In this document: positions 1,296 to 21,433 of the stretch, piece after piece
How the letters are laid out: each line of letters opens with the position of its first letter
How positions within the stretch are numbered: position 1 is the first letter of the stretch
From: a virus
Virus record (IMG/VR): IMGVR_UViG_3300020410_000060
Location: 1-24,333 of that record
Strand: one strand, 5' to 3'
DNA: 24,333 bases
Position numbers and translations under genes: made by a program
The notes under the pieces: generated by a model
What the model saw: the letters and a program-made list of their open reading frames with translations, nothing else
The model's database searches: none
Told to the model about the DNA's origin: nothing

Positions 1296-2700
1296 TTAAT
1301 TCGAACTGCTTAATTTCGTATGAAAATTTTTCTTCGTTGTAAATATTTATACGATCTTTCAGGTGAGAAAGAGTATAATTGTCACATTGTAAATCGTCTG
1401 CAATATCGAATAATCTCATCTTATCTTTTCCATCCACCCTACGAAGACCTCTACCAATCGATTGTAGATTTCGTATTCTAGATTTAGATGGACTTGCAAA
1501 TACTATATTGTCTATTCTTTTTATATTAACACCAGTAGAGAATGTTCCATAAGATGCAAGTATGGTATCGTTCTTTGCCTTCTCTACTATCTCTCTAACA
1601 GCTTCTCTGTCTTCCGTATCTGTTCCACCATATACATAGTGTAAGTTTTCACCCAGTCTCTTGAACATTTTCTCATGTAGAAGAACTCCATGTTTTTCGA
1701 CATATTGGAATAATACGAGTGTATTTCCCGATAAACTGTACACAAGATTACAGATGAATTCGTTTCTTGCTTCATTAGAAACAAGGTAATCCATCTCTTC
1801 TTGGTATGTCATTTTCTTCTGTTTAGTATGACATAGTATGACACAATCTATAGATAAATTTGCAATCGTTCCTTCATCTATCAATTCTTTTGTGCTTATG
1901 ACCTTTTTGACTGGGCCGAACATTCCCTCTAGTTGCAATCTATGACATTCAGAACCATCTAGTGTACCAGTGGTTCCAAACCTAATTGCAGTCTTCCTCA
2001 TTTTTTCGAGGATTCCTTTGAGGACTGTTGCTTTGAAGAGGTGTGCTTCGTCTCCAACGACAACCTCGAATTTTTCCATGACATCTTTAGGAGCCTTACT
2101 AAATGACTGCCATGTTGTAATCGTGATGTCTGAATCAAATACAGGCTGACCACTATAAATCTTACAAATTTCTTTATCATATCCATACTCTTTAAAATCC
2201 TTTGCCATCTGTTCTACAAGTGATGTAGTAGGAACTATGATAACAGTTTTCTTATTATAATATCTTGCAAGTAAATAAATGATAAGAGACTTACCACTTG
2301 CAGTGGGTGAAAGTAATAGTTGTCTACCATATTGTACTGCAGTTCTAAATGCATCTAACTGATAGTTTCTAGGTTCAAAAGGTAAACCCAGTTCTTTTAT
2401 AAACTCTTCATCAGGCTGTCTCTCTTTATCACCAATGATATCATTTATACCTACAATATCATATCCTCTTTCTCTGCAGAACTCATCTACATAAGGAAGT
2501 AATCCGATATAAATTTTATTTGTTTTGATTGAAAATAGACGAACCTTACCATCCCAGTATCTATTCTTAACTGAGGGCATGAACTTTGCGTTGGGAACTG
2601 TGAATGAGAAGAAGTCAAACAAGTCTCTTGCCAGACCATCATCACATTGTACTTGCATGAAGACCTCATCGACCTTCTTAAGAATTATTTCAGAGGCCAT
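1282..2700 (-). CDS. uvsW: UvsW-like RNA/DNA helicase (superfamily 2)
   Basis: UvsW is the T4 helicase that unwinds R-loops and branched recombination intermediates and switches replication from origin-dependent to recombination-dependent mode. This 472-aa protein has the expected order. An N-terminal small domain (about 1-100) is followed by a Q-motif region (RNYQLDAF, 111-118), Walker A SPTASGKS (131-138), DEAH (217-220), motif III region TTGTLDG (243-249), and in the second RecA domain TFSTGVNIKR (386-395) and motif VI QSIGRGLRR (413-421). T4 UvsW is about 503 aa, so the length fits. The ATG follows GGAATAAAGG and overlaps the upstream oxygenase by 16 nt. The uvsY-uvsW neighbourhood matches T4, apart from an oxygenase inserted between them. 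Confidence 0.95.
   Translation of the reverse strand: MASEIILKKVDEVFMQVQCDDGLARDLFDFFSFTVPNAKFMPSVKNRYWDGKVRLFSIKTNKIYIGLLPYVDEFCRERGYDIVGINDIIGDKERQPDEEFIKELGLPFEPRNYQLDAFRTAVQYGRQLLLSPTASGKSLIIYLLARYYNKKTVIIVPTTSLVEQMAKDFKEYGYDKEICKIYSGQPVFDSDITITTWQSFSKAPKDVMEKFEVVVGDEAHLFKATVLKGILEKMRKTAIRFGTTGTLDGSECHRLQLEGMFGPVKKVISTKELIDEGTIANLSIDCVILCHTKQKKMTYQEEMDYLVSNEARNEFICNLVYSLSGNTLVLFQYVEKHGVLLHEKMFKRLGENLHYVYGGTDTEDREAVREIVEKAKNDTILASYGTFSTGVNIKRIDNIVFASPSKSRIRNLQSIGRGLRRVDGKDKMRLFDIADDLQCDNYTLSHLKDRINIYNEEKFSYEIKQFELNDKS
1344..1351 (-). promoter_or_regulatory. T4-type late promoter octamer inside uvsW
   Basis: The coding strand reads exactly TATAAATA, the T4 late promoter element recognised by gp55-loaded RNA polymerase. 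It lies inside the 3' end of uvsW, 48 nt before the start of the 175-aa gene at 1295, a sensible place for a promoter that separates late expression of that gene from uvsW. It is AT-rich sequence, so chance occurrence is possible. Confidence 0.45.
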
Positions 2701-3377
2701 CCTTTATTCCATACGACTAATGATTTTCTTAGTCCTCTCGTAACTGGTGTAACCTGATGGTGTAACCATGATGGGAATACAATTAGAGAACCTAATTCTC
2801 TTCCACTAAAAGGTGCAGAATGTATTAACTCATCTAGAGCTATGTCTCCACTTCTTTGTTTAATACGGTCAAAAACTTTATGTGATTCTATCCATTGAAA
2901 ATGACCACCCTCATAATCATCGGGGTCTGATAGTTGAACTGAACAAGATATCTTTCTTATATCTCCAGCTGGATATGGGTCTACTCCTGCGTCTGTATGC
3001 CATGTATAGAAATCACCAGTTGGTTTATCAGGTTGATATTCATATTGAGTATATTGCCATGTTTCCATACCTGTAATATCATAGTTCCATCCACTTTGGA
3101 CATTTGCTTGAACCATACCATCAAATATTTTTTGTTTGAGTTCTACATCAAATTTAGGGTCATTATGGTCTAACCATTTATTAGTAGATTGTCTAATAAC
3201 ATTATCAGTTGTACCTGACTCACCGTCTCTAGCTCTTGCACTATCTTTATCGTCTTTCATTCCATGACCTATCCTAGAGTCTGCAACTTCAAGACTATGT
3301 GCATATGAATGTATATAATCTACCTCTGTCTTAGTTAGATATTTTTCAAGTATGCAACAATAGGTATGATATATCAT
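2685..3377 (-). CDS. 2OG-Fe(II) oxygenase, prolyl 4-hydroxylase/PKHD-like
   Basis: Members of this family use 2-oxoglutarate, O2 and Fe(II) to hydroxylate protein side chains or other substrates. In this 230-aa protein the HxD iron motif is WHTDAG (H127, D129), the core strand is EGGHFQW (156-162), the distal histidine is in FPSWLHHQVTPV (most likely H207), and the 2OG-binding arginine is in RGLRKSL (R217). All catalytic residues are present. I chose ATG at 3375-3377 because it overlaps the uvsY stop as TAATG. The longer reading from TTG at 3404 would run 27 nt into uvsY. Lying between uvsY and uvsW, it is co-transcribed with recombination genes, although the substrate cannot be told from sequence. 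Confidence 0.88.
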   Translation of the reverse strand: MIYHTYCCILEKYLTKTEVDYIHSYAHSLEVADSRIGHGMKDDKDSARARDGESGTTDNVIRQSTNKWLDHNDPKFDVELKQKIFDGMVQANVQSGWNYDITGMETWQYTQYEYQPDKPTGDFYTWHTDAGVDPYPAGDIRKISCSVQLSDPDDYEGGHFQWIESHKVFDRIKQRSGDIALDELIHSAPFSGRELGSLIVFPSWLHHQVTPVTRGLRKSLVVWNKGWPLK

Positions 3378-3820
3378 TATGAACCCGCCATGAACTTTCT
3401 CCAATCGATTGTATTCTTAATCGTTTGGTGTCTCCATGTTATATTCTCCATACATCTTTTCAAAAAATCTATGGTTGCTTTTTGATATTCAGTTTGTGCA
3501 TTCAGCTTTTGTAAGTCTTTATCTGCATCAAAGAATACATGCATATCATTCTTCATAATCTTGAGACCATCAAACGGGTCATCTTCCCATCCAAGTTCTC
3601 TAATTCTTCCCTCATCCATTTTACCATTGAACCACATCCATTTATCTTTCAACATGGTTTGGTATTTTAGTTGTAGGGATTTATGCTTGACTATTGCATC
3701 AGTCAAGTATTCTGAGTATTTTGCGTGGAGTTTAGGAACTTCTAGTGATGATTTATCTAGTTCGATATCATCAATTTCACAATCCTTTTTCCACTCTGCT
3801 TTCAAATCATCGAGTGTCAT
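3377..3820 (-). CDS. uvsY: UvsY-like recombination mediator
   Basis: UvsY loads the UvsX recombinase onto gp32-covered single-stranded DNA in T4. This 147-aa protein (T4 UvsY is 137 aa) begins MTLDDLKAEWKKDCEID, closely matching the start of T4 UvsY (MRLEDLQEELKKDVFID as I recall it). It keeps the long helical, lysine-rich middle and the DADKDLQKLNAQTEYQK segment that corresponds to SADKDVLKVDTSLQYW in T4. Position beside uvsW also fits. The ATG lies 17 nt downstream of a CATAAATA octamer and just after a TATAAT hexamer, with no Shine-Dalgarno sequence visible. It overlaps the downstream oxygenase by TAATG. Confidence 0.9.
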   Translation of the reverse strand: MTLDDLKAEWKKDCEIDDIELDKSSLEVPKLHAKYSEYLTDAIVKHKSLQLKYQTMLKDKWMWFNGKMDEGRIRELGWEDDPFDGLKIMKNDMHVFFDADKDLQKLNAQTEYQKATIDFLKRCMENITWRHQTIKNTIDWRKFMAGS

Positions 3821-3850: not shown

Positions 3851-4393
3851 TTAGGAAGTGGAATTTATGTCGTAATATGTAAACCTGAATTCTACGGTTG
3901 CAAGTACAGCTTCATTCTCTGACCCTGACTCCAATTCGATTCCACTTAAAGATATAGGGAATGCATCATGGAACCTAAAGAATTTATTAGGTATGTTTTT
4001 GTTTGTATTTGTTACTAGAGTTATATCTGAATATTGATTTAGGTCATTGTCAATAGCAGACAGTTGCCCGTCTGCTGTTTTCTGTGAACCGACATAAGCT
4101 GCAAATGCAGAAGGGTCGGATACTGGAACAATCTGATCCATCCAATCGTAAATCTCTTTGAAGTTTCCTAGGTCTTCATCGACTAAGAATCCGACACTGA
4201 GAGTATCGAATGAAACTTTGTCGCCTGGAAAGAATGCATCTAATCCAATACCAGCAGCTTGAACTGTCTCAGTGAACTGCAGGCCTGGAATATTTACACT
4301 CTTTACAAAGAACTCTACATTTGGAATCTTATCTATAAGTAATCTAAAATTATTTTTACTTAATAGAGATTTATTAATTATCGGATCAGCCAT
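3851..4393 (-). CDS. Tail-tube-like virion structural protein (180 aa), gp19-related fold
   Basis: The 180-aa protein starts MADPIINKSLLSKNNFRLLIDKIPNVEFFVKSVNIPGL. Its layout resembles gp19-family tube proteins: an N-terminal NxFRxxI strand, a xxxxxVNIPGL segment (about residues 28-38), a middle DTLSVGFLVDEDLGNFKEIYDWM helix region (about 63-87) comparable to the RTFEDWSVTIINDSEFSARSALEAWQ region of the gp19 here, and a C-terminal EAVLATVEFRFTYYDI strand. Many marine T4-like phages carry such a second tube-like protein, possibly a tail initiator, terminator or baseplate component; the exact role is inference. The start ATG lies exactly 5 nt after CATAAATA with no Shine-Dalgarno sequence, so a leaderless message is predicted. 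Confidence 0.75.
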   Translation of the reverse strand: MADPIINKSLLSKNNFRLLIDKIPNVEFFVKSVNIPGLQFTETVQAAGIGLDAFFPGDKVSFDTLSVGFLVDEDLGNFKEIYDWMDQIVPVSDPSAFAAYVGSQKTADGQLSAIDNDLNQYSDITLVTNTNKNIPNKFFRFHDAFPISLSGIELESGSENEAVLATVEFRFTYYDINSTS

Positions 4394-10442: not shown

Positions 10443-10940
10443 TTACTTGACTCTTTCCCAGTGAGAATATGTGAAATCAACTGTGAATTCCTCCAATGCA
10501 TCTACTGTTTCGTAATTTAATTCGATAGCAGCAATGTTCTTTGGAAACATGTTGAAGAACTCATATCTCGCAAGGACAGCGTCGTCTTTACCTAATTGTT
10601 CGACAAAAGCTCTAGACAATAGGTAGTCATTAGATGCCATACCTACACCTGAGTCTAGTTCTTGAATGTCTTGTTGCCATGCTTCTAGAGCAGACCTTGC
10701 AGAAAATTCACTATCGTTTATGATGGTCACTGACCAATCTTCGAATGTTCTATCTCCTGCTAACTTTAGGATGTGACCCCTAAAGTTTACTGGAATCTCA
10801 CCTAGGGTAGCAGCGGGAATTGCAGCTCCTTTACAAAGGAACTCAATACGGTTTCCACTTCTAGGAATGAAGACTCTGAATCGGTTAGGTCTTGGGCCAC
10901 CACCAATCAGTTGTGCTTTAAATTCGTCTATTGTTGCCAT
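10443..10940 (-). CDS. gp19: Tail tube protein gp19
   Basis: gp19 hexamers stack to form the inner tail tube. The 165-aa protein (T4: 163 aa) has the family pattern: N-terminal MATIDEFKAQLIGGGPRPNRFRVF, the FLCKGAAIPAATLGEIPVNFRG segment (about 34-55), the RTFEDWSVTIINDSEFSAR strand and helix (about 64-82), and the C-terminal ALEEFTVDFTYSHWER strand. A strong AAGGAG site overlaps the end of gp18, and the 10-nt gap places it in the gp18-gp19 transcript. Confidence 0.95.
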   Translation of the reverse strand: MATIDEFKAQLIGGGPRPNRFRVFIPRSGNRIEFLCKGAAIPAATLGEIPVNFRGHILKLAGDRTFEDWSVTIINDSEFSARSALEAWQQDIQELDSGVGMASNDYLLSRAFVEQLGKDDAVLARYEFFNMFPKNIAAIELNYETVDALEEFTVDFTYSHWERVK

Positions 10941-12990: not shown

Positions 12991-14595
12991 CTACCATTTT
13001 ACTTCATTACCCATCTCTTTTGAGTACCAGCGAGTTCCCTCACTGTCTACAAAGGTAGAATCTTCGGGTTTTACTTCTCCAAAGACCCCTGCTGGGAGTA
13101 TATCGTCTTCTATCATCTTTTGTTGTTCTGCATATAACAAATCTTTCACTTGTTTATCAGTAAGGTGATAGAAGTATTCTGTGGTTATAAACCAACTGAA
13201 TAATACTAAATTCATTACCATGTCATCATGATATCCTCTGTCAGCCTCATATGAGTTTCCCTTAGTGACAAAGGTCATCAATTCTGTTATCGTTGCACGA
13301 TCTACAAGATGTAATCGTTTTTCTTCTAACAATTCCTTGAGTGTAGAGCATCCTACCCGTTTAATCTTTTTATTAACGGTTACTCCAATATCCTCTGCTT
13401 TTAATTGTCCTTGTACAAAGACATTTGGATATTCAATATCATAGTGCAACTGAGTTGCAACCATTCCACCCTCTGCATTATTTTCTATAATTACTAATGC
13501 TTCGTTGTAAGCTCGTACATACTTATTTATAATATCGGGAAACAGCATAGGACTTATCATACTGTCACGATATGTTGCAACCTGTTCGAAAGGTTGTGTT
13601 GATACATCAAATACTGTGAATGTAGAGAAGTCCATACCTCTACCTTTTGCAACATCAACCGTACAGATGTAATCATGTCCCTCTTTGGGTTTTTTATATA
13701 TGTTGACACCATCCCTGTTCCATTCAGGTTCCCATGCTTTCATACCTAACAAGGTGTCTGAGTTAATTAATGTATTACCAGTACCTAAGAATGAGTTACC
13801 ATACTCTTGTTCAAACTGGGCCTCTGAGGTGTTTGCTATGGTCATCTCTTTCCATTTTTCATCACGGCCCGGCACATCGTACCAGTGTATTATAAAGTGC
13901 TTGTATTCTGACTGTTCATGTACTGCAGACTCGTATATTCTATGGAACATATTACCCACACCGTTTGCAGTTGAGGTTATAATAACTTTTGAATCTTTAC
14001 CTGATGTAATAACGGGATATGTTGCAGTGTAGAATGTATCTGCATCATCTACGAATGCAAACTCATCGAGATATAGTAAGTTGATTGACATACCACGAAT
14101 CGAACTTGAAGATGTTGCAGCTGCAACTACTTTCGAATCGTTTGAAAATTCTATTGAACCTTTGTTAAGAATCTTGACGCCTGGTTGTAAAAAGAATGGT
14201 ACAGACTCTAACATGGTTACGATTCTTGCAATCATCTCCCTTGCAATTGCACCTTTGTTAGCAAGAACAGCGACAGTTACTTCGGGATGAAATAGTAGAT
14301 ACCATAGTAAGTATGCACATGATGTAATTGACTTACCACTCTGTCTAGATGCAAGAACTATATTGAATCTGTTCTGATCGTAAAACTCTATTAGTTCTTC
14401 TTGATATCCACGAAGTTGAAAAGGAACCATACCCTCATCTAGGGATATGATTTGAGTATAATTTTCGATGAAATGAACTGGGTCTTTAGAACACTTTAAG
14501 TATTCATTCAGTTCTTCCTCGGTATACTGTGTCTCGACACCAGCTCTCTTGATGAGAGTATTGCCGAGATATCCTTCGTTTACTGGTTTAACCAT
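12991..14595 (-). CDS. gp17: Terminase large subunit gp17
   Basis: gp17 is the packaging ATPase and headful nuclease. With the ATG at 14593-14595 it has 534 aa. ATPase: Walker A SRQSGKS (83-89), Walker B LLYLDE (173-178), coupling motif TSTA (207-210). Nuclease (RNase H fold): D314 in CTVDVAKG, E371 in IIENNAEGG, D457/D458 in HDDMV; the D-to-E spacing of 57 equals that of T4 D401-E458. I chose this ATG because the conserved part begins at about residue 9 (YLGNTLIKRAGVE). It overlaps the upstream gene by 16 nt. A TTG at 14616 would add seven residues. An internal TATAAATA lies at 13524-13531. Confidence 0.96.
   Translation of the reverse strand: MVKPVNEGYLGNTLIKRAGVETQYTEEELNEYLKCSKDPVHFIENYTQIISLDEGMVPFQLRGYQEELIEFYDQNRFNIVLASRQSGKSITSCAYLLWYLLFHPEVTVAVLANKGAIAREMIARIVTMLESVPFFLQPGVKILNKGSIEFSNDSKVVAAATSSSSIRGMSINLLYLDEFAFVDDADTFYTATYPVITSGKDSKVIITSTANGVGNMFHRIYESAVHEQSEYKHFIIHWYDVPGRDEKWKEMTIANTSEAQFEQEYGNSFLGTGNTLINSDTLLGMKAWEPEWNRDGVNIYKKPKEGHDYICTVDVAKGRGMDFSTFTVFDVSTQPFEQVATYRDSMISPMLFPDIINKYVRAYNEALVIIENNAEGGMVATQLHYDIEYPNVFVQGQLKAEDIGVTVNKKIKRVGCSTLKELLEEKRLHLVDRATITELMTFVTKGNSYEADRGYHDDMVMNLVLFSWFITTEYFYHLTDKQVKDLLYAEQQKMIEDDILPAGVFGEVKPEDSTFVDSEGTRWYSKEMGNEVKW
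13524..13531 (-). promoter_or_regulatory. Internal TATAAATA in gp17, uncertain
   Basis: An exact late octamer on the coding strand inside gp17, about 600 nt before the next gene start (gp18, which has its own promoter). It encodes part of an Ile-Ile-Asn-Lys stretch. It is probably fortuitous, recorded because exact copies were seen only on the coding strand. Confidence 0.2.
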
Positions 14596-15137
14596 AAATT
14601 TTCTGGCGGTGTCCAAGACCCCGTGTATTCATATCTATTTGGATACGGATTATTTGCACAATCAGTTTCCAATGTCAAAATTTTACTTGGAAACTCAGTG
14701 TAAATATCTTGTATCATATCGTGTTGAGTTTTTAATCGTTGATAACTTGCATTTAAAAGATCATCGTTGATCTCGTATCCATCTAATCGTGCTGTTCTAG
14801 CTCTTGATGATGCAAGTGAATTTGGTCTAGGCCCATCTGATGTCATTGAAATAGCATAACTAACAACTTGTTCTAAAGTGTTTTCTCTTTGTAAATAAAA
14901 GATTACATCGGCAAATTCAATTACCTGTCTATGGTTTCCACCTTCCCATTGTATAGGATGAAATTTACCTACAATGTCATTTGTTTTTGTCAACCAATTA
15001 TTGACCTTTGTAGTTCTATCCTCATAAAAGTCACATGATATTTCTCCTAAACCTTCATGAGATGGTGTACCATTTACAATCTCGTCATGTAAGTACCAAC
15101 TACCAACTCTAAAGTTACTAATTATTAATCGTCTCAT
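14580..15137 (-). CDS. Small sulfotransferase-like protein (185 aa)
   Basis: Sulfotransferases move a sulfuryl group from PAPS to hydroxyl or amino groups. The start MRRLIISNFRVGSWYLHDEI has the form of the 5'-phosphosulfate-binding loop after beta-strand 1 (RVGSWYL, residues 10-16), comparable to the RSGST-type loop of Stf0-like enzymes. FYLQRENTLEQVVSYA (80-95) fits the 3'-phosphate-binding motif, with R84 and S93 nine residues apart. The protein is short and the loop lacks a lysine, so catalysis is uncertain. The ATG at 15135-15137 overlaps the methyltransferase stop as ATGA, with GGAGGA 7 nt upstream; the TTG at 15155 is therefore rejected as start. It lies between gp16 and gp17, unlike T4. 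Confidence 0.65.
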   Translation of the reverse strand: MRRLIISNFRVGSWYLHDEIVNGTPSHEGLGEISCDFYEDRTTKVNNWLTKTNDIVGKFHPIQWEGGNHRQVIEFADVIFYLQRENTLEQVVSYAISMTSDGPRPNSLASSRARTARLDGYEINDDLLNASYQRLKTQHDMIQDIYTEFPSKILTLETDCANNPYPNRYEYTGSWTPPENLWLNQ

Positions 15138-15700
15138 ACATAGTCCTCCATCCAACCTAATCGGATTAATTCTTTGAATGCTCTATCATGTTTATTTACA
15201 TAATCGATCATTCCCTCTTGTTCTTCTCCATCACCATCCATATACTCCTGTGGAAATACTCTACCATTGACTTCTAACATATTTGTTTTGTTTATCAATG
15301 CATCTATCTCAGGTATACCTTTGTGTAGGTATATGTCTGCTTCAGGCCACTTACCCATTTTGAAAAAATCATGATGTATAATATCCCAATGAGGGTACAT
15401 ACCTTTTGTATATACACAAGCCCATGGGTTATTATCTATACTGATGCATTTTTCAGCACCGTAATATTCTGCAAGATGGAGTAGAACACCTGTCCCACCT
15501 CCTAGATCACATACAGTTTTACCAGCTGCATGTTCCTTTAACCAGTTTTCATATGGATTGTAATCCTCTACATTATCAATATCTTTCCAGTAATCAGTTT
15601 GATGACGGGTCAGATGTCCCAAAGCTAATAACCAAAAGGCTTCTCCTTCCTTTACTTCGGGTATAGGTATCGATTTATATTCTTCAAGTTTCTCGAACAT
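15134..15700 (-). CDS. Class I SAM-dependent methyltransferase (188 aa)
   Basis: The protein has the Rossmann-type SAM motif I VCDLGGGTGVL (about 63-73), the acidic end of beta-2 in CISIDNNPW (D89), and a post-II HHDFFK segment (109-114) with D111. The C-terminal part (NTNMLEVNGRVFPQEY region) looks like the usual late strands. No DNA-methyltransferase catalytic motif such as DPPY/NPPY or a PC cysteine motif is visible, so a protein or small-molecule substrate is more likely than DNA. The ATG overlaps the end of gp16 by 17 nt, and the stop is coupled to the sulfotransferase-like gene by ATGA. So both enzymes are embedded in the terminase operon. Confidence 0.82.
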   Translation of the reverse strand: MFEKLEEYKSIPIPEVKEGEAFWLLALGHLTRHQTDYWKDIDNVEDYNPYENWLKEHAAGKTVCDLGGGTGVLLHLAEYYGAEKCISIDNNPWACVYTKGMYPHWDIIHHDFFKMGKWPEADIYLHKGIPEIDALINKTNMLEVNGRVFPQEYMDGDGEEQEGMIDYVNKHDRAFKELIRLGWMEDYV

Positions 15701-16097
15701 CTTTCTTAGACTCCTTTTTCAGGAACTTTTGCAACTCACTTGTTGAACCTACATACAAATGATTATGTTGTGTCCTGACTGAACTATCCTCCTTCTCAAG
15801 GTCTTTTAATTTCTTCTGTATATCTATCAACTTTTCTGCAGTCTCAGATACAGTTTTAATTAATTGACCAGCAACCTCGTATGCACGCGGGTGTTCTGTT
15901 TCTTTGGAAAGTTCTAGTATGCCATCTATTGCATCTTGTCCTCTCTCAACGAGGTCATATAAATTCTCACGGGCATACCTGTAGTCTGTTTCGATATTCT
16001 TATCCCTATCAGGAACTTTGACTAATTTAGTTTCTTGTTTGATATCACTATTGATATCTAGAAGATTATCTAATTTTTGATCTATCTCTTTTGTCAT
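15684..16097 (-). CDS. gp16: Terminase small subunit gp16
   Basis: gp16 recognises DNA and regulates the large terminase. This 137-aa protein (T4: 164 aa) is mostly coiled coil: DTRYRYAREN-like helix (about residues 37-48), NLYDLVERGQDAIDGILELSKE (about 46-67), then ETAEKLIDIQKKLKDLEKE (about 86-104). The central RAYEVAGQLIKTVSE is the hallmark helix of the family. The C-terminus is polar and basic. It starts two bases after the gp15 stop. The gene order gp15-gp16 is the T4 order. Confidence 0.9.
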   Translation of the reverse strand: MTKEIDQKLDNLLDINSDIKQETKLVKVPDRDKNIETDYRYARENLYDLVERGQDAIDGILELSKETEHPRAYEVAGQLIKTVSETAEKLIDIQKKLKDLEKEDSSVRTQHNHLYVGSTSELQKFLKKESKKDVRET

Positions 16098-19146: not shown

Positions 19147-19818
19147 TTAACCCTTTACTTTAGGGTCATCTATATGAAATCTATTCCATTGATAATCAAT
19201 AGGTATATCAGTATCACCACCCATTCGGTGTGTAACTGTATTAAATGCAACACTATATCGGTCTTTACTGGTTGTATTAGGTTCAACCATGTGTATAAGA
19301 CCGCTAGGGAAGAGTAGAAGGGTTCCTGTTACTGGTGATACCTCGAATGATTCTCTCTGTTTGTTATTATGTGGGAAGTCACTAACTGTATCTGCACCTT
19401 CTTTTATTGCAACAAAATTACCCTCATCACCGTCTGCATGTACATAAAATGCACCACTTAACCAACAACCATTATGTCTATGAGGTTTATTCCATGCACC
19501 TTTGTCATTTATATTACCCCACATATTACCCAAACTTACACTTGCCTGAGTTGTATCCACGGCTAACCAAGGAAGAACTTTATGATTATATTTGTCCTTG
19601 ATTACACGGTTGAGTTTAGCCCAGGCGGGGCGATTTTCGAAGCCATCGTTTGATTGCCAACCTGTATATGCGTTAGATACTTGTCTACCGACTGGGTCTT
19701 TCTTTCTCACTGTATCCATATCATTTTTCAATGATAAAAGATATTCCTCTGTTACCAATCCTTCCTCTACGAGATTAAACTCGAACAAGTAAGTAGGAAA
19801 CAATAATCTAACTGACAT
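19147..19818 (-). CDS. 2OG-Fe(II) oxygenase, TIGR02466/2OG-FeII_Oxy_5-like
   Basis: The 223-aa protein matches the layout of the putative 2OG-Fe(II) oxygenase family common in marine bacteria and phages. It has SLGNMWGNINDKGAWNKPHRHNGCWLSGAFYVH with the metal-side histidines at H113/H115 (about residues 95-127, by position) and GTLLLFPSGLIHMVEP with the distal H176. R187 follows in DRYSVAFN as the 2OG anchor. The N-terminus FPTYLFEFNL is also typical. The substrate is unknown. It starts three bases after the upstream stop and is part of the accessory operon. Confidence 0.88.
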   Translation of the reverse strand: MSVRLLFPTYLFEFNLVEEGLVTEEYLLSLKNDMDTVRKKDPVGRQVSNAYTGWQSNDGFENRPAWAKLNRVIKDKYNHKVLPWLAVDTTQASVSLGNMWGNINDKGAWNKPHRHNGCWLSGAFYVHADGDEGNFVAIKEGADTVSDFPHNNKQRESFEVSPVTGTLLLFPSGLIHMVEPNTTSKDRYSVAFNTVTHRMGGDTDIPIDYQWNRFHIDDPKVKG

Positions 19819-19821
19819 AAT

Positions 19822-20739
19822 CTATTCTCTATCTATTTTTTCTGACTCCGAACCATCCCAATTCAAATCAGTCAACTCACGCTGCTTATCTTTGAAGCTT
19901 TGGTGAGCTGGACATTCAGGTGGTGGTGTTTCTCCCCCATCTGTAGGTTTACCATAGAGTCTTGATTTGGGTTTCCAAATCTTAGCACTTCTATATCCAC
20001 CTATATTTAATTGGTCATTCGGTAGTCCAGTTTCATCATCCACCAGTTTTAACTCCCTTTGCCATTTTTGCATACTATCAGGATGTATTGCATGTTGTCC
20101 ATGCCATGCTTCTGCATCTTGATAATAATATGTAGATGCCCATTCTTCCCTCTTGAAAGGAAAAATTTGTACAAGCGGTGTTCCCGCTTCTATTGTAAAC
20201 GAATGATTAACCTTTGGATAAAAAATAATTTGTGCATTATCCATATTAATATTGAAGCGGTCAGAATCAATCACTCCTTGCCAACATGCGAAGTATTTAT
20301 TTGAGAACATAAATGGATCAAGAAAGAGGACTGAATAACCTTCGGGTGTAATCATGTTCCAGTTTGAAGATATTTTAAATGCATCTTTCACTGGGCCATC
20401 TGCACCCATATATTCTATAGAATCTTGTAGTTGTGCTGAAGGATGTGATTGTGAAAAATGACTTGCAGTCGGAGAAGTTGAAAATTTTTCTGAATCATCA
20501 GGCCAATCCCAATCAGGCCCATTCATTACATCTATATCCTCTGTTGCAAGAATATAGTATCCCATAGTTAACCAATCTTGCATAGAAGGACAAGAACGAA
20601 TAGTCTGAGCCATTCTTCCTCTATGATCTACACGAACCTTTTGTTTCTTCCACCATTCAGGTTGCATCTCTCTAGCTGCAACTGGTCTAGTGTTTGCATA
20701 TGATTCTTTGTTAAATGTTCTAAACTCAATAGTAGGCAT
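19822..20739 (-). CDS. DUF6065-like protein (305 aa)
   Basis: The N-terminal part has a compact domain with RSCPSMQDWLTMGYYILATEDIDV (about 48-71, by position). A second part has NWNMITPEGYSVLFLDPF, then FACWQGVIDSDRFNINMD, then IEAGTPLVQIFPFKREEW (about residues 127-213). This pattern (CPS-x-x-DW-x-x-MGY, TPxGYSVLF, GxxDxDR, GxPLxQxxPFxR) is what I associate with DUF6065, a family seen near oxygenases in phages and bacteria. I know no biochemical function; the second half looks like a cupin-like beta fold. The C-terminus is polar and Pro-rich. The start overlaps the upstream oxygenase by 14 nt, suggesting coupled translation. Confidence 0.72.
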   Translation of the reverse strand: MPTIEFRTFNKESYANTRPVAAREMQPEWWKKQKVRVDHRGRMAQTIRSCPSMQDWLTMGYYILATEDIDVMNGPDWDWPDDSEKFSTSPTASHFSQSHPSAQLQDSIEYMGADGPVKDAFKISSNWNMITPEGYSVLFLDPFMFSNKYFACWQGVIDSDRFNINMDNAQIIFYPKVNHSFTIEAGTPLVQIFPFKREEWASTYYYQDAEAWHGQHAIHPDSMQKWQRELKLVDDETGLPNDQLNIGGYRSAKIWKPKSRLYGKPTDGGETPPPECPAHQSFKDKQRELTDLNWDGSESEKIDRE

Positions 20740-21433
20740 ACTTATCTCTCTCGTCTTTTAAAACTATCTCGTCACCTCTAATTACAATAGACTTTCTATC
20801 TATATATCTTGCAGATTCATGTGGTGCTTCTGCACCATGTGGTAATCTTCCATCAAACATCAATAGTCTATTTGGTACAAAATCAACTGTACCAGTTTCA
20901 TACTCATCCATAAAATCTAAAATTCCACCGTGAATTATCTCACTGTAAAATCTTAATTTACCACCCCAGTTTGGATTCCAAAATGTGTTAGGATAATATA
21001 GAAAGGAAAGATTCCAGTCATCTTCTTTTTCACAATCTGAATGACAAGTTCCATGTTGTCCATGAGTTTGTGAGTTACCACCAGCATATTGAAATCTAAC
21101 CCAATCAAATCCAAAGTCTGTTCTTATTTTTCTATCAAGGTATCTAATTAGATAATTAGGATAACCGTTCATTCCATTCAAATGACCATCTCTCATATCA
21201 TGTCCTTGAAAGAAATTACATCCCCATAACTGATGATTAGGTAAACCACCTCTCCCATCATTAGGATTACCATTTACTTGATTTGTTTTTTGCCAAGCAC
21301 AATGAGTCATGTCCCGATTCACTGCATGGAATACAGCATCTTCAAGATAATCATCTAAAACATAAACATTGTTACCTAGAGGCATTTCCTTGATATGGAA
21401 AGGCTCATCAATGTGTACAACATTGATATCCAT
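20726..21433 (-). CDS. 2OG-Fe(II) oxygenase (235 aa)
   Basis: The double-stranded beta-helix iron site is clear. HSD (H131, D133) is followed by LSFLYYPN and NWGGKLRFYSE (about 156-165), then NRLLMFDGRLPHGAEAP with the distal H199, and R213 in the DRKSIVIR strand. This is the organisation of P4H-like phage oxygenases that hydroxylate proteins or small molecules. All catalytic residues are present, so it is likely active. It differs from its neighbour at 19147-19818 in motif form and is not a recent duplicate. The ATG lies one base after the previous stop. Confidence 0.88.
   Translation of the reverse strand: MDINVVHIDEPFHIKEMPLGNNVYVLDDYLEDAVFHAVNRDMTHCAWQKTNQVNGNPNDGRGGLPNHQLWGCNFFQGHDMRDGHLNGMNGYPNYLIRYLDRKIRTDFGFDWVRFQYAGGNSQTHGQHGTCHSDCEKEDDWNLSFLYYPNTFWNPNWGGKLRFYSEIIHGGILDFMDEYETGTVDFVPNRLLMFDGRLPHGAEAPHESARYIDRKSIVIRGDEIVLKDERDKYAYY

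Follow-up and report, generated by a model that had tools for sequence, protein, structure and literature searches.

The present study examined a window of 24,333 bases (the whole stretch of DNA analysed), an IMG/VR virus record from an uncultured T4-like phage in which two complete ORFs, A and B, stand between the terminase genes gp16 and gp17. The reading to which we give a probability of about 0.6 is that this junction is a cargo site, that ORF A derives from a protein arginine methyltransferase (PRMT), has been eroded and has changed its role, and that ORF B, a homologue of Stf0 sulfotransferases, was inserted later. Profile searches and a structure model show the cargo gene at this junction in many relatives as a predicted full-length PRMT-like methyltransferase, with a SAM Rossmann domain, a double-E loop and a barrel-like C-terminus that carries a THW loop. 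In one clade of the tree of the large terminase subunit, to which the window belongs, the double-E residues, the barrel and the THW loop have been lost, while the gene stays open under purifying selection.

Gene organization around the terminase junction

Family matches identify the surroundings of the junction as a T4-like structural module, which runs from genes for the head-tail adaptor, head closure and sheath stabiliser through gp16, ORFs A and B and gp17, and continues with sheath, tube, portal, protease, scaffold and major head protein; beyond the last of these lie a second tube gene, UvsY and a helicase. The features of the junction are as follows.

15684–16097, minus strand: gp16, terminase small subunit (TerS), 137 aa (PF11053, 7.7e-8; phrog_445, 7.9e-44)
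15711–15714, minus strand: GGAG, Shine-Dalgarno-like sequence within gp16, upstream of the ORF A ATG
15134–15700, minus strand: ORF A, putative short-form PRMT-derived SAM-fold protein, 188 aa (short-form profile, best match PRMT3, 1.1e-6)
15145–15149, minus strand: GGAGG, Shine-Dalgarno-like sequence within ORF A, upstream of the ORF B ATG
14580–15137 (from its ATG), minus strand: ORF B, probable Stf0-like sulfotransferase homologue, 185 aa (hhalign to Stf0)
12991–14595 (from its ATG), minus strand: gp17, terminase large subunit (TerL), 534 aa (PF03237, 1.3e-23; PF17289, 1.4e-14)

Neighbouring genes overlap throughout: gp16 and ORF A by 17 nt, ORFs A and B by 4 nt (ATGA), and ORF B and gp17 by 16 nt. 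An earlier note on this DNA had given these overlaps, together with the coordinates, frames and motifs of both ORFs, and all were correct. Its claim of two genes inserted between gp16 and gp17 was also confirmed, as both are complete, real genes under purifying selection, with low dN/dS in independent contigs of close relatives (0.13–0.23 for ORF A, 0.16–0.30 for ORF B); values for the flanking gp15, TerS, TerL and gp18 are lower still, at about 0.03–0.10. Frames maintained at low dN/dS in independent contigs, and GGAG and GGAGG preceding the ATGs, indicate that the two ORFs are more than chance. Since they belong to the late operon, each beginning behind one of these motifs within the gene before it and ending within the gene after it, they are probably produced together with the packaging proteins.

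Elsewhere in the window, the single structural module contains two tail-tube (phrog_45) paralogues (10443–10940 and 3851–4393), two 2OG-Fe(II) oxygenase genes lie one on either side of the late structural module (2685–3404 and 19147–19818; phrog_61 and phrog_81), and an Endonuclease V-like gene (phrog_274) is found at 20726–21433.

ORF A and its full-length relatives

Two motifs of ORF A bear on its origin.

15488–15511, minus strand: CDLGGGTG, SAM loop, residues 64–71, kept in the window clade
15308–15325, minus strand: HKGIPE, residues 126–131, at the position of the PRMT double-E loop (alignments and motif table)

The earlier note had called ORF A a SAM methyltransferase, and the SAM fold is borne out: CDLGGGTG is a GxGxG-type motif I, as in the SAM-binding Rossmann domain of PRMTs, and the first 15 matches of a profile built from short forms only, the window's included, were all PRMTs. 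At the double-E site, alignments and the motif table place K and I at the two Glu positions, in a shortened loop, and the chain stops at residue 188, without the THW loop and C-terminal beta-barrel that long relatives have. Identity is 26–36% to full-length PRMT-like relatives and 44% to an intermediate form, L019. We infer from these comparisons that ORF A is PRMT-derived and not a canonical arginine methyltransferase. In PRMTs, the double-E and THW loops act in substrate binding (PMC8226133); the double-E loop binds the substrate guanidinium. The kept SAM loop of ORF A could reflect a different methyl acceptor rather than lost catalysis.

Neither ORF received a confident name from Pfam, NCBIfam, PHROGs or PADLOC, and tblastn searches of 50,697 phage records, with ORF A, ORF B and the long forms as queries, returned nothing, or generic methyltransferases only. 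Two other assignments of ORF A were rejected. The sole PADLOC match, mad2 (6.2e-5), is weak and covers the SAM domain only, which speaks against a defence system. As for a DNA methyltransferase, ORF A has no DPPY/NPPY-type motif IV, the profile and fold lists consist largely of PRMTs, and matches to phrog_3820 ('DNA methyltransferase') are weak and limited to the motif I region.

Arginine methyltransferases are known mainly from eukaryotes. Members of the present family occur, with few exceptions, between gp16 and gp17 of uncultured T4-like phages, and the full-length ones have 235–322 aa. A profile of ten longer relatives (nine full-length forms and L019) matched PRMT1 in the PDB at 8.2e-21, with an alignment spanning the SAM domain and the double-E region, and PRMTs made up 58 of the 60 matches listed. 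An AlphaFold2 monomer model of one long form, L086 (pLDDT 81, pTM 0.83), matched PRMT1 in Foldseek (2.6e-11), and VIA gave Z of about 16–17.7 over residues 11–264, with an rmsd of about 3 and about 200–214 residues aligned; all 50 rows listed were PRMTs. Another structural relative, in a viral library, is the unnamed D6PIP9 (E 3.4e-23, 34% identity). A motif survey of 58 distinct proteins of the family found E-x8-E in every complete member of at least 235 aa except L019, and THW/SHW in the same members except L019 and a form located at nrd genes, so that all complete long forms at the junction, bar L019, have both.

The long forms thus match class I PRMTs (PRMT1, 3, 6 and 7; yeast HMT1) over the full length, through the SAM domain, a double-E loop of identical 9-residue spacing, THW/SHW and a C-terminal barrel-like domain. 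Unlike class I PRMTs, the family is phage-encoded and sits mostly at the terminase junction, and the form in the window, at 188 aa, has neither double-E nor barrel nor THW. PRMT-like proteins are also present in some class-level relatives of L173, a contig binned with a Rhodobacteraceae MAG, among them the alphaproteobacterium L206, whose 400-aa ORF carries HEQIGDNLFNE (HE-x8-E) and THW; such bacterial proteins are a possible source of the phage family. The nrd-located member (278–282 aa, HEIFGTVLYEE, no THW) lies between the genes for the large and small subunits of ribonucleotide reductase, with copies in L173 (3211–4044) and on the phage contigs L141 (3791–4627), L142 (3920–4756) and L146 (3908–4756). 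No description of phage PRMTs was found in the open-access literature, and it seems that no arginine methyltransferase has so far been recognised at this place in related phages.

Erosion to short forms

The short forms (149–200 aa in the motif survey of 58 proteins) all lack both double-E and THW. On the TerL tree they fall, together with L019, into one clade (19 rows, 100/99), whose sister consists of 4 long-form rows (99/91). L019 has kept the C-terminal domain, with G/D instead of E/E and TSF instead of THW. As the domain is retained while the catalytic residues are changed, this one sequence suggests that the catalytic residues were lost before truncation. Decay of the SAM site across relatives, which the earlier note had named as evidence against its reading, was found in part: the window clade retains the glycine loop, which has decayed in some short forms. 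In the two shortest (149–150 aa; L030, 3056–3508, and L035, 585–1034), the Asp of motif I is also gone (ILG and VLG), which is a further erosion step.

ORF B, a homologue of Stf0 sulfotransferases

ORF B had been described as a short protein with PAPS-type motifs (RVGSWYL, residues 10–16; R84; S93), a description that a profile-profile match to Stf0 upholds. Its motifs are located as follows.

15096–15113, minus strand: FRVGSW, residues 9–14, resembling a 5'-phosphosulfate loop; collinear with PRSGS of Stf0, at low confidence
14859–14888, minus strand: R84-x8-S93, putative 3'-phosphate-binding motif, aligned to R-x8-S of Stf0

When the ORF B alignment was compared by hhalign with thirty Stf0 proteins from genomes of one bacterial family, the score was 38.4 (4.2e-5). 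The highest of 150 column shuffles gave 19.1, so that none reached the Stf0 score, and the reversed alignment gave 12.8. The match is anchored on R84-x8-S93, while the collinearity of F-R10-V-G-S13 with P-R-S-G-S of Stf0 belongs to a low-confidence part of the global alignment. A candidate for the catalytic base (His or Glu) is E32: by eye, the invariant GLGE that contains it is similar to a G-x-P-x-E region present in some Stf0 proteins. Among the defining residues, a review lists the 5'-loop Arg (in Stf0) and the Ser of the 3'-phosphate helix (PMC11625862). Homology of ORF B to Stf0 sulfotransferases is supported by these alignments. Like Stf0 (PF09037), ORF B would have an Arg-containing 5' loop (the part aligned at low confidence) followed by R-x8-S, in conserved order. 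It differs from Stf0 in its length (185 aa against a domain of 244 positions), in lacking parts of the stretch that separates the two motifs and in falling under the Pfam cut-off: the window's copy gives no match at the gathering score of PF09037, and the copy in L027 scores 17.6 bits (0.0028), under the 22-bit cut-off. Sequence searches of the PDB with ORF B were empty, and a structure model, the check that the earlier note had proposed, was of low confidence (pLDDT 41) and had no meaningful match there.

Besides the window, five IMG/VR contigs carry ORF B, four at 91–92% identity and L027 at 49%, and it was found only in the window's clade and this near relative. On the TerL tree, these form two branches within the short-form clade, and this limited occurrence indicates that ORF B arrived after ORF A had shortened. 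Its distribution shows that the Stf0-like gene entered the window's lineage later, between ORF A and gp17. The TerL tree is compatible with two gains and also with a single gain plus a loss in L108.

The gp16–gp17 junction across relatives

The junction was surveyed in the closest TerL relatives and the closest ORF A relatives in IMG/VR. Frequencies refer to the best 80 loci per query and are not population estimates. Four states occur: empty, long, short, and short with the sulfotransferase-like gene. Among contigs with both terminase genes, 49 carry a full-length member with double-E, 28 a member without it (4 of the 28 with ORF B) and 37 no insert. The family is strongly, not exclusively, tied to this junction, where 77 of the best 80 relatives of ORF A lie, the other 3 being between nrdA and nrdB. 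On the same contigs, identity falls to 29–69% for ORF A, against 71–100% for TerS and 80–99% for TerL.

Among named phages, C48C1 has no insert between gp16 and gp17 and S-PM2 has three unrelated ORFs; in Methylophilales phage Melnitz (L013, 1912–3945), TerS and TerL are separated by the gene for a 677-aa F5/8 type C protein. The interval from g15 to g18 has been described as a hyperplastic region in cyanomyoviruses and marine T4-like phages (PMC2984593). In cyanomyoviruses, as here, accessory genes are inserted among the structural genes g15 to g18; their cargo includes plastoquinone and carbon-metabolism functions (PMC2984593), whereas the present group, a different, uncultured T4-like one, has one recurrent methyltransferase family. 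The 37 empty contigs, the other cargo in named phages and the published hyperplasticity together point to the junction as a cargo site.

Discussion

In the reading we prefer, the gp16–gp17 junction of this T4-like group would be a cargo site within the late structural operon. The window's ORF A would bind SAM and serve in a changed role, as a pseudoenzyme, a scaffold or an enzyme for another acceptor. ORF B would be a sulfotransferase that depends on PAPS and is expressed late in infection, along with the head and packaging genes; its acceptor would probably be a hydroxyl group on a glycan or protein of the host or the virion. The overlapping starts may couple translation of both ORFs to that of gp16 and gp17.

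The earlier note saw two active enzymes, coupled to packaging and acting on a virion component, packaged DNA or a host-surface molecule. The SAM loop and the PAPS motifs are indeed conserved within the window clade, both ORFs are under purifying selection at an overlapping late-gene position, and marine phage proteins, a terminase small subunit and a portal among them, carry Lys and Arg methylation, first reported in 2026 and ascribed to host enzymes because those phages are not known to encode any methyltransferase (PMC13288928). Of the proposed group-transfer pair, the SAM fold and the Stf0 homology stand, but with double-E, THW loop and barrel lost a working enzyme cannot be assumed for ORF A, which lacks the PRMT substrate-binding loops. 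Moreover, most short-form relatives are without ORF B, so the two ORFs are separable, and we consider joint activity improbable. Somewhat better placed, although still doubtful, is the view that these are hitchhiking cassettes, which recombination through homologous flanks maintains at a hyperplastic site and whose roles, for instance anti-defence or superinfection exclusion, have nothing to do with packaging. It accords with the published g15–g18 region, the contigs without insert, the different cargo of S-PM2 and Melnitz, the family member between nrdA and nrdB and the divergence of ORF A beside conserved terminase subunits. Apart from that divergence, these same observations weigh against the tight integration with the packaging motor that had been proposed, of which the gene overlaps remain. 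An anti-defence role, however, has the one weak PADLOC match confined to the SAM domain, and the concentration of the closest family members at one junction would also suit a functional link to the terminase.

It is very unlikely, in our estimation, that the long forms are true phage PRMTs and that the short form serves a PRMT-like enzyme of the host as a prozyme or substrate adaptor. There is a precedent in trypanosomes, where PRMT1 pairs with TbPRMT1-PRO (TbPRMT3), a PRMT that lost both loops and became a catalytically dead prozyme (PMC8226133); 6dnz appears in the VIA list of L086, and the alphaproteobacterial L206 protein has both motifs. As in ORF A, the double-E and THW residues of the prozyme are lost and the gene is kept (PMC8226133). 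The prozyme, though, has all four PRMT domains and an active paralogue, whereas ORF A is truncated and lacks the barrel domain, which bears the dimerisation arm in PRMTs (PMC8226133). A second family copy is absent from all 10 related, family-bearing phage records; with one copy per record, a prozyme pair encoded by the phage itself was rejected.

A bolder reading is conceivable, and we hold it only tentatively: the long forms would be the first recognised phage-encoded protein arginine methyltransferases, kept at the junction by methylating a packaging or virion protein, and the window would represent erosion to a pseudoenzyme, with a sulfotransferase moving in beside it. More striking than the window is the intact long-form family. 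It recurs in phages beside the terminase genes with a complete, predicted PRMT-like active site, and so opens phage-encoded protein methylation to direct test; the graded series at this one locus, from intact to eroded, is a natural experiment in how an enzyme may become a retained, non-canonical protein.
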